Assembly: GCA_903888515.1 (NCBI GenBank)
Contig: CAISTY010000128.1
Coordinates: 1-41,374, forward strand
Source: Akkermansiaceae bacterium
Lineage (GTDB): Bacteria; Verrucomicrobiota; Verrucomicrobiia; Verrucomicrobiales; Akkermansiaceae
Length of the DNA stretch: 41,374 nt
Direction of reading: 5' to 3'
A program made the position numbers and the translations under genes. The first letter of the stretch is position 1, and the number at the start of each line of letters is the position of its first letter. This document shows positions 3,152 to 11,733 of the stretch, piece by piece. The notes beneath the pieces are model-generated. The model was not told the origin of the DNA, did no database searches, and saw only the letters and a list, made by a program, of their open reading frames with translations.

Positions 3152-3376
3152 GTGAGCATTGATCAGATTGCACCAGAGGCCCTTCGCCTTCCGACCAGGG
3201 AGCGGGCGCTGCTTGCCGCCTCCCTATGGGAAAGCATTGAGGATCCCTACGTTCTTGCGGTGGATCGTAGCGACGAGGACGCGATCGTGCTGGCGCTGGC
3301 TCGTGACGCCGAACTGGAATCGGGGAAGGTCAACCCGCTTTCACATGCAGAACTGATGACGCGTCTGAGGGAATGA
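3152..3376 (+). CDS. Type II antitoxin, addiction-module component family
   Basis: A 74-residue acidic protein. Its opening, PEALRLPTRERALLAASLWESIEDP, is typical of the small addiction-module antitoxins (TIGR02574-type) that sit before ParE/RelE toxins. The C-terminal half, ending LSHAELMTRLRE, would be the toxin-embracing helix. It starts with GTG. The stop codon overlaps the toxin start (ATGA at 3373-3376), which implies translational coupling and the usual antitoxin-first order. Antitoxins of this class usually bind their own promoter with the toxin, but I see no clear operator in the 150 bases upstream. The pair sits in a repeat-rich accessory region, which fits mobile or stabilising roles. 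Confidence 0.82.
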   Translation: MSIDQIAPEALRLPTRERALLAASLWESIEDPYVLAVDRSDEDAIVLALARDAELESGKVNPLSHAELMTRLRE

Positions 3377-3666
3377 GGATTGACTACCATCCCGCGATTG
3401 CAGCGGAGCTTGAAGAGATTCGGGATCACTACGAATCATGTTCGTTAGGTCTGGGTTCCGATTTTATTGACGAGTTTGAACGGCAGATTTTGAAGGTGGC
3501 GGCAATGCCGACTCGCTGGATGGTGGTGCAGGGCGATATTCGGAGATGCCTGATGAAGCGGTTTCCCTACGCGATCTTGTTCCGGCTTATCGGGAACGAT
3601 TGGATACGCGTCACTGTGGTCAAGCATGAGAAACGGCACCCTGCCTTCGGACTACACAGGAGGTGA
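3373..3666 (+). CDS. ParE/RelE family type II toxin
   Basis: A 97-residue protein with the RelE/ParE fold signature: an N-terminal strand MRIDYHPAIAAELEEIRDHY, a long helix SDFIDEFERQILKVAAMP, the block GDIRRCLMKRFPYAILFRLIGND (strand-turn-strand with basic residues), and the closing VTVVKHEKRHPAFGLHRR. ParE members poison gyrase and RelE members cleave mRNA on the ribosome. The KRFPYAILF block and the terminal His/Lys-rich strand fit the ParE-like branch better, but this is inference. The start ATG overlaps the antitoxin stop. Both genes appear intact, so the module may be active. About 35 bases after the stop, repeat copy A begins. Confidence 0.85.
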   Translation: MRIDYHPAIAAELEEIRDHYESCSLGLGSDFIDEFERQILKVAAMPTRWMVVQGDIRRCLMKRFPYAILFRLIGNDWIRVTVVKHEKRHPAFGLHRR

Positions 3667-3700: not shown

Positions 3701-3910
3701 GCGGCTTGGCGGTAAATCCTCATACGCTGAAAAAAGCCGAAGAATTCTCTTGCGGCAATGCTGCGGGGCCGATAGACGGGGATTGTCTGACGACGCTTTA
3801 CGGCGGAGGGGGACGCAGTCCGCACTTCCGGGCGGCATTTGTACCTTCTTATACCGCACGCTGTATAATAAGGACAATTGCCGCGCACGGCTTAATAAAA
3901 CTGTTGGCAG
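3701..3910 (+). repeat. Palindromic element, copy A
   Basis: A ~210-bp segment that recurs, inverted and diverged, at 10955-11162. It opens with a GGCTTGGCGGTAAATCC block, continues through GAAGAATTC and CCGATAGACGGGG, and contains a long hairpin at 3832-3884. The arms GCGGCATTTGTACC... and ...GGACAATTGCCGC pair over about 22 bases around an 8-base loop. The core is TTATAC-N8-GTATAA. It ends ten bases before the start of the next gene, and the other copy also ends shortly before a gene start in the same relative orientation. Confidence 0.75.
3839..3869 (+). promoter_or_regulatory. Candidate promoter inside the palindrome
   Basis: TTGTAC (3839-3844) and TATAAT (3864-3869) are spaced by 19 bases and lie within the two arms of the palindrome. 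Copy B has the same two hexamers at the same spacing. If real, the dyad would act as an operator over its own promoter and drive the gene beginning at 3920. The spacing is a little long for a housekeeping promoter, so this is a proposal from sequence only. Confidence 0.35.
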
Positions 3911-3919
3911 GAGAAGATT

Positions 3920-4336
3920 ATGAGAAGAGTAACCGCAATCCTTATCGCAACGATTTTCTCGGTCTCGGCGATGGAGGACAGTCCAGCGGTGGGGTTCTGG
4001 CTAGTCGCAACAAGGAGTCTGACGAACGCAGTAAATCAGGCGGGAGGACTGTCCAAGATCGACCAGGCCACGCTGGTTGGCATAGCTGAATGTCACGGTC
4101 ACTTCAACGGCCCTTGCGACCTTGTACTTCAAGCAGGCACCGCGCAGTTTCGGATCAAGGCAACAGACGACGGCAGAACCGTTGACTACGCCGTCACTTA
4201 CTCTTGGCCACAAGTCAAGGTTCAGGCACGACAATCCAGTGGCCGTGTCGAAGTGGGGCAGGATTTTGTCGCGAAGGCTGGATGGGAGAAGGACGACTTC
4301 GTTTTGGTCATGAACAGACTGAATCTGAAACAATGA
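3920..4336 (+). CDS. Small exported protein of unknown function
   Basis: A 138-residue protein I do not recognise. The N-terminus MRRVTAILIATIFSVSAMED looks like a signal peptide. The rest carries a single Cys pair (AECHGHFNGPCDL), which could form a disulphide after export, then a strand-rich half (AQFRIKATDDG, VDYAVTYSWPQVKVQ, DDFVLVMNRLN). An AGGAG ribosome site at 3908-3912 is well placed for this ATG. It follows palindromic element copy A directly and is followed by a hairpin resembling an attC site, so it may be a gene cassette. No enzyme motif is visible. Confidence 0.65.
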   Translation: MRRVTAILIATIFSVSAMEDSPAVGFWLVATRSLTNAVNQAGGLSKIDQATLVGIAECHGHFNGPCDLVLQAGTAQFRIKATDDGRTVDYAVTYSWPQVKVQARQSSGRVEVGQDFVAKAGWEKDDFVLVMNRLNLKQ

Positions 4337-4341
4337 GGACT

Positions 4342-4390
4342 TGCCAACCAGCAAATGCTCGGTACGGCTTCGCCGCCCGAGATTTGAGGC
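4342..4390 (+). other. attC-like hairpin, degenerate
   Basis: CAAATGCTCGG (4352-4362) pairs with CCGAGATTTG (4377-4386) if one G is extrahelical, around a CGGCTTCGCCG loop. This is the inner layout of an integron attC site. TGCCAAC (4342-4348) could be the outer box, but the matching GTTRRRY box is poor (TTGAGGC at 4384-4390). It sits between two small genes exactly where a cassette recombination site would be. It is either a decayed attC or an unrelated hairpin. Confidence 0.35.
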
Positions 4391-4405
4391 GCTGAGAGGA
4401 TAAAT

Positions 4406-4873
4406 ATGATTATGATTGATGAAGCAATCTCTGCGCTGAAAGCAATAAGTATAGCTGAACCGCGAATTGGCCCTCCGCCTTCCGCCGATCTAATCGCTGC
4501 AGCTGAGACTAAACTCAGTTGTAAATTCCCTCCGAGTTTTCTCAAGTTCCTGGCGGTTGCCGGCTCTTACCAGCTGTCTTTCTGGGAGACATACTGGGTC
4601 GGGCCATGCGATCGTGACGACATTGTTGAAATGAATCGGCAAGAACGAGAAGAAGCATCGTCTCCGTTGCCTTCATACCTTGTTGCGTTCTTTAATAATG
4701 GCATGGGAGACCAGATTTGTTTTGACACTCGCACCATTGACGACAATCGAGAATACCCGATTGTGTTTTGGAATCATGAACTGTCGCAAGAAGAGAACCT
4801 TAAACAACTCGAACAGATTGCTCCAAATTTTGCAGAATGGTTAATGGATGAAGTTAAAGCAAGCGACAGCTAA
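4406..4873 (+). CDS. SMI1/KNR4 (SUKH) family protein
   Basis: A 155-residue SUKH-superfamily protein. The hallmark is an N-terminal ADLIAAAETKLSCKFPPSFLKFLAVAGS segment at ~28-55 (helix, short turn with FPPS, helix ending in a small residue), followed by a strand-rich middle (SFWETYWVGPCDRDDIVEMN) and the late block SYLVAFFNNGMGDQICFDT. SUKH proteins often serve as immunity proteins against contact-dependent or polymorphic toxins; no such toxin is seen nearby, so the role here is open. GAGAGGA at 4394-4400 is a good ribosome site. The gene is visibly more AT-rich than the housekeeping genes of the window, which suggests transfer. Its stop codon lies inside the attC-like site, the normal arrangement of an integron gene cassette. 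Confidence 0.85.
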   Translation: MIMIDEAISALKAISIAEPRIGPPPSADLIAAAETKLSCKFPPSFLKFLAVAGSYQLSFWETYWVGPCDRDDIVEMNRQEREEASSPLPSYLVAFFNNGMGDQICFDTRTIDDNREYPIVFWNHELSQEENLKQLEQIAPNFAEWLMDEVKASDS

Positions 4874-4936
4874 CCAAGCACTCCATGTTATTTTTCAACC
4901 AGGCGGTTGAAAAAAACATGAGTGCAATCGTTAGGC
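4868..4936 (+). other. Integron attC-like recombination site
   Basis: All attC parts are visible in 69 bases. R'' is AGCTAAC (4868-4874) and R' is GTTAGGC (4930-4936, a perfect GTTRRRY). L'' is GCACTCCATG (4878-4887) and L' is CATGAGTGC (4917-4925); they pair fully if one C of L'' is left out, matching the extrahelical base that orients attC. A central stem TTTTTCAACC/GGTTGAAAAA closes on an AGGC loop. R'' deviates from RYYYAAC at one position. It follows the SMI1/KNR4 stop codon, and the next gene starts 18 bases after R'. No integrase gene is in the window, so this would be a cassette without a nearby intI. Confidence 0.72.
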
Positions 4937-4954
4937 CGACACCCCCGTCACACG

Positions 4955-5317
4955 ATGACCACCACCGAAGCACGAAAGATTGTTGAGTCACTGGCGGATG
5001 GTCGTTGCCCCCAGAACGGCCAGAAGCTACCGACGGACAGCGCGTATCAGCAGGCCGATGTTGTTCGTGCCCTGCTCATCGCAGCGAGGGCGCTTGAGCG
5101 AGTCGAGCGCATTGAGCGTCGCGCCGGTGAGTTGCCGGAGCACGCTGGCAGGGGTTGGGACGTTGCAGAGGAGCAGCGGCTTTGCGAGGATTTCGCCGCA
5201 GGCAAGTCGGTGGCAGAGCTTGCGCAGTTGCACCGGCGCACGCGAGGAGCGATTCAGTCGCGCTTGGAGCGCCTCGGCAAGATTCAGGCAAGAGAAGACT
5301 CAGGCAGGAATGCCTGA
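4955..5317 (+). CDS. Small protein with C-terminal helix-turn-helix-like segment
   Basis: About 120 residues. The N-terminal half (EARKIVESLADGRCPQNGQKLP, then SAYQQADVVRALLIAARALE) resembles a widespread uncharacterised bacterial family with a DG-P-G-LP pattern. The second half (EEQRLCEDFAAGKSVAELAQLHRRTRGAIQSRLERLGKI) is a clear helix-turn-helix-like unit of the kind that ends in SRL-KLG, so DNA binding is plausible. I chose the ATG at 4955, 18 bases after the attC R' box, because the similarity begins there. The last residues and the TGA stop come from an inserted hairpin repeat (5299-5318), so the natural C-terminus may have been replaced. Confidence 0.68.
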   Translation: MTTTEARKIVESLADGRCPQNGQKLPTDSAYQQADVVRALLIAARALERVERIERRAGELPEHAGRGWDVAEEQRLCEDFAAGKSVAELAQLHRRTRGAIQSRLERLGKIQAREDSGRNA

Positions 5318-9024: not shown

Positions 9025-9044
9025 TGTCGCGTCCTGTTCGGCTT

Positions 9045-9383
9045 TTATTTCGGTGTGCGAGCCAATAAAGACTGACGACCAAAAAGCATGAATGGAGCGC
9101 CCACGAATATAGAAATCAGCAATACTAGCGGCCATGCACGAACAGGATTAAGGGGATAGGGACCATCCCGTAGAGCTTCCATATACGTTTTGTATGCGCC
9201 AGCAGCATCATCTACATCTAAGTCATCAACGACAACACGGACGCCTCCAATCGTATTGCTATAACACCAAAAAAGCTGCACGAAATACTCATCATTCAAG
9301 GACGCATCGATTCCTTGATCTCCCAAATAGGCTCGAAACAGGTGTGCATCCTCCGGTGTCGTAAATGTTGCGATTGTCGTCAT
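9045..9383 (-). CDS. DUF2007-like protein with a C-terminal membrane segment
   Basis: A 112-residue protein. Residues 1-65 (MTTIATFTTPEDAHLFRAYL, then GIDASLNDEY and GGVRVVVDDLDVDDA) match the DUF2007 pattern: strand, helix starting with an acidic residue, strand, and a VxVxxxDxxxA ending. Such domains are thought to act in signalling or regulation but are uncharacterised. A hydrophobic segment AWPLVLLISIFVGAPFML near 84-101 should anchor it in the membrane. The order on the minus strand is a membrane protein (10931), a SecD-like lipoprotein (10391), then this gene, all unrelated housekeeping-like fragments on an accessory island. Confidence 0.72.
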   Translation of the reverse strand: MTTIATFTTPEDAHLFRAYLGDQGIDASLNDEYFVQLFWCYSNTIGGVRVVVDDLDVDDAAGAYKTYMEALRDGPYPLNPVRAWPLVLLISIFVGAPFMLFGRQSLLARTPK

Positions 9384-9488
9384 GAGTATTTCTGCCGTCG
9401 ATGTGTTCCTACGGGAGCCAAAGGAAGGAGAACGGAATGAAATAGAAAAGTAGCAGCCCGTTAGGAGCCACGTCTTGTGCGCTTCTCT

Positions 9489-10391
9489 TCATTTGTTCTT
9501 GGGGTCTGATTGTGGTGCTACTAGCGGCGGCGCCTGTGACGAATTCGGTGGCACTGAGCCGAGAGTGGGAGATACGTTGCGTATCTCGTCGATTCTCAAG
9601 ACGGTTTCTAGCGGGTTCATCAACGCGTTGGCAAGGCTTTGCACCTCACCGGGTTCACGCAGCCCTTCCAAAATGAAGTATTTGCCCAGGGGCACCTGAT
9701 TGACTACCGGCGCGCACATCACCACGCCGTCCAGCACGATGGCAATGCGATCCCGTCCTGGGGTCATGTCCTTTGTGAGGGCGATCAACTTGTTGGTGCC
9801 TTCGCCATTGAGCGTGATGGAGACCGCATCGGCTTGCTGGGGCGAGGGCACGGCCAAGGCGATATCGTTGCCGCCGAGGGCGACGCGACGGTTCAGCAGA
9901 ATCGGAGTTTGGATTTCGTTGCCATCCGCATTCTTGTGTTTGTACATGTAGGCCTTGTAACCCGGGACGATTTCCGCACCGGCGGCGACGCGAGCGGCGA
10001 GACTCTTGCTATCGTGATTGCCAGGTTCGTCGTTGCGCGGGCTGACCTCACGCAGTTCGAGCTTGCCGATCTTTTCGAGGGTTTTCTTGATTTTGTCGAA
10101 CTCTTCCGGCGTGACGCCGGGAATTTGTAACAGGATGCCGTCGACTCCTTGGCGGGCGAGGATCGGTTTGGCCGTGCCCAAGCTGTTGAGGCGCTTCTTA
10201 ATGACCATGATCGCCTGGTCCACTTGGTGCGGAGTCACCGGCATCGTAGCGCCCGTATCATCGGTGCGCGGCTGGACGTGCAGGGAGAGTGCCGCGCCAC
10301 CGCGGATGTCAATACCACCCTCGCTGTCCGACTCCTTTTTGCAGGAAGGCAGAAGAACTAGAATGAAAAATGTCGTTAGGATGTATTTCAT
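9489..10391 (-). CDS. SecD-like periplasmic domain lipoprotein
   Basis: A 300-residue protein. From ATG 10391 it starts MKYILTTFFILVLLPSC, a lipoprotein signal with Cys17. The body resembles the large periplasmic part of SecD: HQVDQAIMVIKKRLNSLGT, then GILLQIPGVTPEEFDKIKKTLEKIGKLELREV (P1 domain), and NGEGTNKLIALTKD plus VVNQVPLGKYFILEG (head and base region). The six-helix membrane half of true SecD is absent, so it cannot be a translocase motor by itself. It may be a free accessory factor or an anchored domain with a changed role. An in-frame ATG nine codons upstream would destroy the lipobox position, so 10391 is preferred. The C-terminus is Pro/Ser-rich. It follows a small membrane protein gene on the same strand. 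Confidence 0.72.
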   Translation of the reverse strand: MKYILTTFFILVLLPSCKKESDSEGGIDIRGGAALSLHVQPRTDDTGATMPVTPHQVDQAIMVIKKRLNSLGTAKPILARQGVDGILLQIPGVTPEEFDKIKKTLEKIGKLELREVSPRNDEPGNHDSKSLAARVAAGAEIVPGYKAYMYKHKNADGNEIQTPILLNRRVALGGNDIALAVPSPQQADAVSITLNGEGTNKLIALTKDMTPGRDRIAIVLDGVVMCAPVVNQVPLGKYFILEGLREPGEVQSLANALMNPLETVLRIDEIRNVSPTLGSVPPNSSQAPPLVAPQSDPKNK

Positions 10392-10508
10392 ATGCTTGAA
10401 TTCTTGGCGGAACGCCATTGGTTGGCGCGCGGGTTCATGTTACCTTTCCAATTGTCGTGGGGGAAACTCCAATTGGTTGGTGCGCGGGACACGCGTGAAA
10501 GGGTGGAG

Positions 10509-10931
10509 TTAGTGGGGTGACGGAGGAGCTTCTGGTGTCTTGCCATCCGCGACTTCGGCAATTGCATTCCTAAGTATGAATAGCGAAATCAAAGTAATGA
10601 CAACAAACATCCCGGACAGAAACGATCCAAAAACTAATGGCTGCAAGCATTCTGCTGCTCCGGCCTGCCACGGCGATGGATCAAGCACACCCGACGAAAG
10701 CATATTCGTGAGAACCCTCTGCAAGTTGGAGGAGCAACCGTAGATGCCCAAAATGATTGGTAGCACGGAAGATGGCAGCAGTAATCGATTGAATAACACT
10801 GGACGCTTGAATGTAGCGCAAAGCGCACCAATGAAAAGGATCACGGAAAGCGCAATGAAATGCGCACTGCTTCCACATTCCATGTAGTAGTCAAGGAAGG
10901 TCTTTTGAACCATGGATGATATTGTAGCCAT
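10509..10931 (-). CDS. Small integral membrane protein
   Basis: A 140-residue protein with three likely membrane helices: AHFIALSVILFIGALCATF (~23-41), LLLPSSVLPIILGIYGC (~50-66) and LVFGSFLSGMFVVITLISLFIL (~98-119). The tail is short and Pro-rich. The layout faintly recalls MotA/TolQ/ExbB proton-channel subunits, but no diagnostic residue supports that. Palindromic element copy B ends about 24 bases upstream of this start, in the same relative orientation as copy A before the 3920 gene. It is followed by the SecD-like lipoprotein, 117 bases downstream, and may be cotranscribed with it. Confidence 0.65.
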   Translation of the reverse strand: MATISSMVQKTFLDYYMECGSSAHFIALSVILFIGALCATFKRPVLFNRLLLPSSVLPIILGIYGCSSNLQRVLTNMLSSGVLDPSPWQAGAAECLQPLVFGSFLSGMFVVITLISLFILRNAIAEVADGKTPEAPPSPH

Positions 10932-10954
10932 ACAAACGCGGGTCTAATCTATCG

Positions 10955-11162
10955 GCCGACAGTTTTAATATACAGCGCGCGGCAATCGTCCTTATTATAC
11001 GGCGTGCGGTATAATAAGGTACAATTGCCGCCCGGAAGTGCGGACTTCGTCCAGCGCCGCCGCAAAGCGGCGTTAGACAACGCCCCGTCTATCGGACCAG
11101 CGGCGTTTCCGCAAGGGAATTCTTCGGTTTTCTTCACCGGCATGGATTTACCGCCAAGCCGC
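10955..11162 (-). repeat. Palindromic element, copy B
   Basis: Inverted relative to copy A (3701-3910) and similar over nearly the whole ~208 bp. Its hairpin at 10979-11031 is better preserved: CCTTATTATAC and GTATAATAAGG form a perfect 11-bp dyad around an 8-base loop, and outer arms GCGGCAAT/ATTGCCGC extend the pairing to ~22 bases per side. TTGTAC and TATAAT again lie 19 bases apart on the minus strand. It also contains CGCCGCAAAGCGGCG followed by GTTAGAC. A GCCAAGCC-type repeat follows immediately. Confidence 0.75.
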
Positions 11163-11733
11163 CAAGCACGCCAAGGGATGCGGAAGAGATTGAGGATTGA
11201 GGATTGAAGAGGAAGAGATTTACCGCCAAGCCGCCAAGATCGCCAAGTGGCCAAAGGGGAATGAACTGCGAATAAGAGTGTTTTAACAGGGGCGGACGGA
11301 GGGAACGGAGGATAAAGAAATCGTCAAAGGTCAGCTTGAAAATCCCTCCATTTGGCACCCTCCGTTACCTCCTGTTCAAATCCTCTTCATCTTCCAACAA
11401 AAAAGCTCTTCCTTGGCGTGCTTTGCGCCTTGGCGGTTAAAAATTCCATGAAGAAAGACACGGGCAGGAATGCCCGTGCTCCGTTGTCTTCTTCCTCTTC
11501 ACCAATGACCAATGACCGATGACCAGTGACCAAGATAGGAGATCGAGGATCGTGGATCGAAGATCGAAGATCATTCCCAATCCACTATCCACAATCCACA
11601 ATCCACTATCCACTATCCACTATCCACTATCCACTATCCACTATCCACTATCCACAATCCTCAATCCACAATCCTCAATCCTCAATCCACAATCCACAAT
11701 CCTCAATCCTCAATCCTCAATCTCTTCCCCCCC
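11163..11733. repeat. Gene-free repeat mosaic D with microsatellite
   Basis: No gene is visible. It holds GCCAAGCC units (11147-11250), an inverted copy of the ~100-bp block (11320-11386), an inverted GCCAAGG unit (11408-11445), the third GGGCAGGAATGCCC hairpin (11459-11478), ATGACCA units (11501-11531), and the inverted copy of the 7735-7786 block (11541-11590). About 150 bases of CCACTATCCA/CCACAATCCTCAAT tandem repeats (11578-11728) follow. The tandem tract is open in more than one frame, but its His-Tyr-Pro-Leu-Ser-Thr-Ile repeats are an artefact of the DNA repeat. Confidence 0.85.

Follow-up and report, generated by a model that had tools for sequence, protein, structure and literature searches.

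What is the roughly 210-bp palindromic element that stands just before two unrelated small genes in a 41,374-nucleotide stretch of Akkermansiaceae bacterium DNA (assembly GCA_903888515.1, contig CAISTY010000128.1; the whole stretch is here called the window)? A preliminary description had placed one copy at 3701-3910 on the plus strand (copy A) and another at 10955-11162 on the minus strand (copy B), and had proposed a mobile promoter-operator module, a degenerate recombination site, or a structured RNA leader. Both copies were recovered by alignment (85% over 208 bp, E = 2.1e-59). The gap between element and start codon is 10 bp for copy A (ATG at 3920) and 24 bp for copy B (ATG at 10931), with one relative orientation for both, as had been reported. 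The full copies examined elsewhere are likewise followed by a gene start in that orientation, which leaves the claim of nonrandom placement unrefuted. The sequence and its surroundings indicate that the element is very probably the platform of a verrucomicrobial integron, consisting of a cassette promoter (Pc) and the recombination site attI.

The integron integrase IntI captures circular gene cassettes by recombining their attC sites into attI at G^TT, and the crossover of integron recombination sites has the form G^TTRRRY. A search of the source genome (5.3 Mb in 309 contigs, 93% complete and 3% contaminated) found the element, whole or partial, at 20 places. Alignment of the copies resolved two modules, a 5′ leader and a 3′ hairpin. 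The leader is about 85 bp long and common to most copies, with other sequence in its place in C118 and C221, and the hairpin module follows one common plan in three or more sequence types (C113/C240, C135/C245, and the window type). Left flanks vary between copies, and module-bearing copies near-universally end in a form of AAAACTG|TTNNNN, beyond which the sequence is unrelated. In the aligned copies, an R box of the GTTRRRY kind with a G^TT crossover is present as a near-invariant end of the ACTG^TT type, with the bases after GTT more variable than RRRY. The functional 3′ boundary lies 5 to 7 bp inside the end originally assigned. We define the 3′ module as attI, with the following window copies:

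3824 to 3903, plus strand: copy A attI (hairpin, repeat, and L-box-like sequence; crossover G3903^T3904); attI model R2, 75.3 bits; in relatives the module follows intact integron integrases.
10960 to 11039, minus strand: copy B attI (crossover G10960^T10959); attI model R2, 65 bits.

The hairpins of copies A and B were far more stable than those of shuffled sequences (z = -4.0 and -5.4, respectively). The 11-bp dyad CCTTATTATAC/GTATAATAAGG noted earlier is perfect in copy B, as claimed, and carries one mismatch in copy A. Among 23 aligned attI sites, both sides changed in 10 of 14 pairs of the hairpin, and cells with changes on both sides numbered 65, compared to 24 +/- 5 after shuffling and 4 to 14 when the partner was slid. 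Moreover, the inner arm resembled the L-box-like repeat of its own site (8.74) more than those of other sites (5.89 +/- 0.47; 0 of 10,000 permutations), the pattern that co-evolving integrase binding sites would give. A covariance model of the element's 3′ half (the attI model) matched 30 sites in the source genome; the sequences from which it was built recur among its matches, and the model search is no independent test of structure.

The exact core pattern had no match outside the source genome in 58 relatives searched, because attI sequence types differ and a structure model is needed. With the attI model, matches were found in 42 of the 73 genomes of the genus (the source genome and 72 others), with 30 in the source genome, followed by 19, 14, 13, 12, 11, 10, and 10. 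Intact integrases in the genus (459 to 508 amino acids [aa]) are followed by the hairpin module on the same strand. For example, the 508-aa IntI of G006 (TIGR02249, 362 bits; cutoff, 265) has an attI about 120 bp downstream, and in named Akkermansiaceae, Luteolibacter, and Verrucomicrobiaceae metagenome-assembled genomes attI lies ~110 to 140 bp after intI on the same strand. Because attI follows intI in this way, intI, Pc, attI, and cassettes all point in one direction, and the gene order in a complete integron of the lineage is intI-Pc-attI-cassettes on one strand. Integrase C-terminal remnants precede the attI module on the same strand in the source genome at C118 (where the integrase has an internal deletion), C111, C5, and C185. 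Integrase stumps also precede attI in G076 (C12, C52, and C197), where sites retain the last 20 to 50 residues. Thus, some platforms were visibly derived by deletion of intI. An integrase beside attI is found for the attI family in relatives and is absent at both window copies, and therefore the window copies are integron-derived platforms, not complete integrons. As a separate observation, G012 has 11 attI-model matches (C351, C163, C150, C37, C6, and others) and no close integrase match, and its site type differs.

The sequence downstream of the copies was also that of an integron. In 12 of 15 copies, the first 7 bases after the crossover have their reverse complement (R″) where the first gene ends, compared to 25 of 202 combinations in the mismatched control (Fisher P = 3.5e-8). 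The sequence behind each copy is therefore a cassette, with R″ opening an attC. A regular-expression finder for attC was dropped as too noisy, and a covariance model from an alignment of 10 attC sites taken after the copies' first genes was used instead. The model indicated at least about 86 attC sites in the source genome at E < 0.01, a lower bound with 150 of 3,505 candidates scored, and attC sites whose R″ pairs with the left junction of the cassette, as is diagnostic of integrons, were found. The cassettes of the window, each with its open reading frame (ORF), are as follows:

3904 to 4394, plus strand: cassette A1, with ORF 3920-4336 (138 aa, unknown, signal-peptide-like N terminus) and a short attC-like site at 4342-4394.
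4395 to 4930, plus strand: cassette A2, with SUKH/SMI1-KNR4 family ORF 4406-4873 (Pfam SUKH_5, 1.7e-18) and attC at 4868-4936.
4931 to 5317, plus strand: probable cassette A3, with ORF 4955-5317, beginning at TTAGGC after the attC of A2.
10469 to 10959, minus strand: cassette B1, with ORF 10509-10931 (140 aa, unknown, hydrophobic) and attC at 10469-10559 (attC model R1, 31.2 bits).
9394 to 10468, minus strand: cassette B2, with SecD-domain ORF 9489-10418 (Pfam SecDF_P1_head, 9.8e-15) and attC at 9394-9483 (attC model R1, 33.8 bits).
9036 to 9393, minus strand: cassette B3, with ORF 9045-9383 (weak Pfam DUF2007 match, 1.1e-4, below cutoff) and GCCGAAC (9042-9036) as the sole R″ remnant.

Cassette A1 has the left junction GTTGGCA, and its exact complement, R″ TGCCAAC, lies at 4342-4348, just past the stop of ORF 3920-4336. 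The attC hairpin of A2 (AGCTAAC...G^TTAGGC) folded with a z of -7.2, and no attC was found behind the ORF of A3. Homologues of A1 were absent from the 72 other genomes of the genus; those of B1 were distant and present in four of the 72, with no attC of the model near them.

Two motif pairs were candidates for a promoter. The preliminary description had pointed to TTGTAC-N19-TATAAT, which is indeed found in both window copies. That pair was rejected as the promoter, as it is unconserved across attI types: its TATAAT is part of a repeated motif within one attI type, and other types carry TTCAATAA, GTTAACA, or GTGAACA. A promoter is nevertheless likely, located instead in the leader, where TTGCGG-N17-TAGACG stands ~42 bp upstream of attI:

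3740 to 3823, plus strand: copy A leader, Pc-like (TTGCGG 3750-3755, N17, TAGACG 3773-3778); kept in 11 type-1 copies at a mean identity of 0.86.
11040 to 11123, minus strand: copy B leader, Pc-like (TTGCGG 11114-11109, N17, TAGACG 11091-11086); kept as in copy A.

The general form TTG[GC]-N16-18-TAN[AG] occurred at a fixed distance upstream of 27 of 61 scanned sites, some of them false positives, compared to 2.1 +/- 1.4 in shuffled sequences, with a spacer of 17 bp in 25 of the 27 matches. At integrase-linked sites the motif lies ~28 bp from attI. The motif pair TTGCGG-N17-TAGACG is likely the cassette promoter. Derivation of the leader from the intI promoter region was considered and rejected, as there was no visible resemblance to intI upstream regions. 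Those regions carry, in most relatives examined, a TGTTC-N4-GAACA box, the Verrucomicrobia LexA motif reportedly described by Erill et al. 2016, which PMC8565304 cites.

The leader was also seen in other combinations. At L021, L020, L016, L017, and L091 one shared upstream flank and leader precede three different attI sequence types, which implies exchange at the border between leader and attI (CTTCCGGG). Leader copies that are truncated and lack attI occur at L023, L025, and L027 (C146:50560, C57:12726, and C22:54823) and at L099 and L103, and in C22 the Pc-like leader precedes an ordinary-looking reading frame. Low-complexity intergenic repeats of the TTGAGGAT, TCATTGGT, and CTTGGCGGTAAAT families are dense around platforms, both in the window (11520-11730) and in the flanks of most copies. 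A toxin-antitoxin-like pair on the plus strand of the window (3152-3666), comprising Unstab_antitox PF09720 and a ParE-like protein that scores slightly below the Pfam cutoff, ends 35 to 80 bp before copy A.

Most copies in the source genome, including both window copies, have no adjacent integrase. Among 124 listed attI sites of the genus, 31 had a listed integrase C terminus upstream, 2 were at contig edges, and 91 had none, the last being an upper bound because C185 and some G076 sites were counted there yet bear integrase stumps. No integrase trace was found in at least 1 kb of upstream DNA at sites such as L146, L152, L160, L164, L166, L170, L174, and L182. L164 belongs to a genome assembled as one contig (G004), where a fragmented assembly does not account for the missing integrase.

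One way in which integrase-less copies could arise, and a subcase of the platform reading, is that they are dead remnants of complete integrons: deletion of intI would have left Pc and attI with cassettes stranded behind them, and capture would no longer take place. We consider this a serious possibility that falls somewhat short of an even chance. The integrase stumps described above are consistent with it, as are the lack of an intact cognate intI in the assembly and the degeneration of some window junctions and attC sites. Against it, integrase-less sites recur across many species, G004 among them, and 11 leader-bearing copies have a leader of their own and no integrase remnant, which suggests that Pc and attI multiplied together as a unit. 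Moreover, conservation is markedly higher in attI than in the leader beside it: in the 11 type-1 leader copies the mean identity was 0.957 for attI and 0.856 for the leader, with attI higher in 55 of 55 nonindependent pairs, which suggests either constraint or gene conversion.

A second alternative is that a mobile promoter element or miniature inverted-repeat transposable element landed upstream of small genes by chance. The dispersed copies, long inverted repeat, promoter-like motif, and varied left flanks could be so explained, but the inverted repeat lies within the 3′ half and not at the ends, the element stops on its right side at the IntI crossover G^TT, and the neighboring genes end in attC with matching R″ while the module itself adjoins integron integrases. 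Matching terminal inverted repeats of a transposon end were not seen in the aligned copies, and we regard this alternative as highly improbable; the operator reading was likewise given up in favor of Pc and attI. A structured RNA leader (riboswitch or attenuator) has equally little chance of being correct, for although a covarying hairpin does separate the putative Pc from the start codon, the genes that follow are unrelated to one another, the element ends at a recombination crossover and not at a gene start, the L-box repeats an inner arm, which integrase binding would predict, and a scan of the window gave no Rfam match at the gathering threshold. The hairpin may have a secondary role in the mRNA 5′ untranslated region.

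Several observations weigh against the Pc-attI platform. The 93%-complete assembly yielded no intact integrase of the attI-linked clade, and the only intact integron-type integrase (C138, L028:238-1545; 435 aa; TIGR02249, 293 bits) is distant, at 37% identity, with no attI or attC found behind it. Some window junctions are degenerate: copy B starts GTCGGCC, and GAGAGG stands where A1 meets A2. The share of sites without an integrase should be read as an upper bound, counted among the integrase matches listed and with contigs that break near repeats. Finally, recombination, promoter activity, and action of an integrase in trans are what we infer from sequence patterns. The attI identity, the cassette and attC structure, the missing intI, and the conserved promoter-like motif are nonetheless read directly from the DNA and argue for the platform. 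Of the preliminary proposals, a recombination site was thus correct, in the form of an integron attI, and its degeneracy was not; the promoter module was correct in part, with a different motif as the likely promoter.

We infer that cassettes were inserted at the platforms by IntI, either in cis before its loss or in trans. A captured promoterless cassette gene would end up directly downstream of Pc. Besides the complete integrons of the lineage, the source genome carries many Pc-attI platforms without intact intI, each with its own short array of different cassettes, and gene capture seems to be distributed over many sites rather than one. Live loading in trans may take place in the lineage. 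That tens of scattered platforms are served in trans by an SOS-inducible IntI, with the palindromic attI perhaps recognized through its folded or dyad structure, is a tentative proposal to which we give about a third of our belief.

Three known systems are comparable. Treponema integrons have an atypical order, with intI pointing towards attI and the cassettes (PMC3607928), and share with the present family that transcription of intI, the R site GTTRRRY, and attC-bounded cassettes; unlike them, one genome here, in another phylum, has ~30 attI sites, most without intI and each with a promoter-like motif. CALIN elements and cassettes at attG sites are arrays without a neighboring integrase (PMC8618304, PMC12444791), presumed to be served by IntI elsewhere or left by its loss, as could be the case here. 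Window arrays A and B are likewise attC clusters without an adjacent integrase, but CALINs are defined by attC alone, and the platforms open with a full attI and a promoter-like motif. The attI1 site of class 1 integrons has repeats DR1 and DR2, which the integrase may bind (PMC12901181, PMC4792948), and resembles the present sites in its L/R crossover at G^TTRRRY with preceding repeats. It is recognized as double-stranded DNA by sequence, whereas the attI family here keeps a covarying ~55-bp inverted repeat in a site of ~80 bp. No description of dispersed integrase-less attI, or of solo or multiple attI, was found in the literature covered, which left out most subscription journals. We conclude that dispersed integrase-less promoter-attI platforms, with their own small arrays and a palindromic attI, are a new integron variant.

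Searches that score intI and attC alone would call such arrays plain CALINs and overlook the platforms. The family is a large natural set of attI sites that differ in sequence and keep their structure and repeats, which makes the poorly understood recognition of attI by integrases directly testable, and a palindromic attI recognized by structure, if true, would blur the distinction between attI and attC. In existing descriptions an integron is a single platform that has one attI and one promoter, and strong expression is limited to the first cassettes. About 30 promoter-attI platforms per genome would escape that limit, turning a single stockpile into many expressed slots. If the distributed integron is real, many cassettes would stand first behind a promoter simultaneously, rather than one array having its first few expressed.
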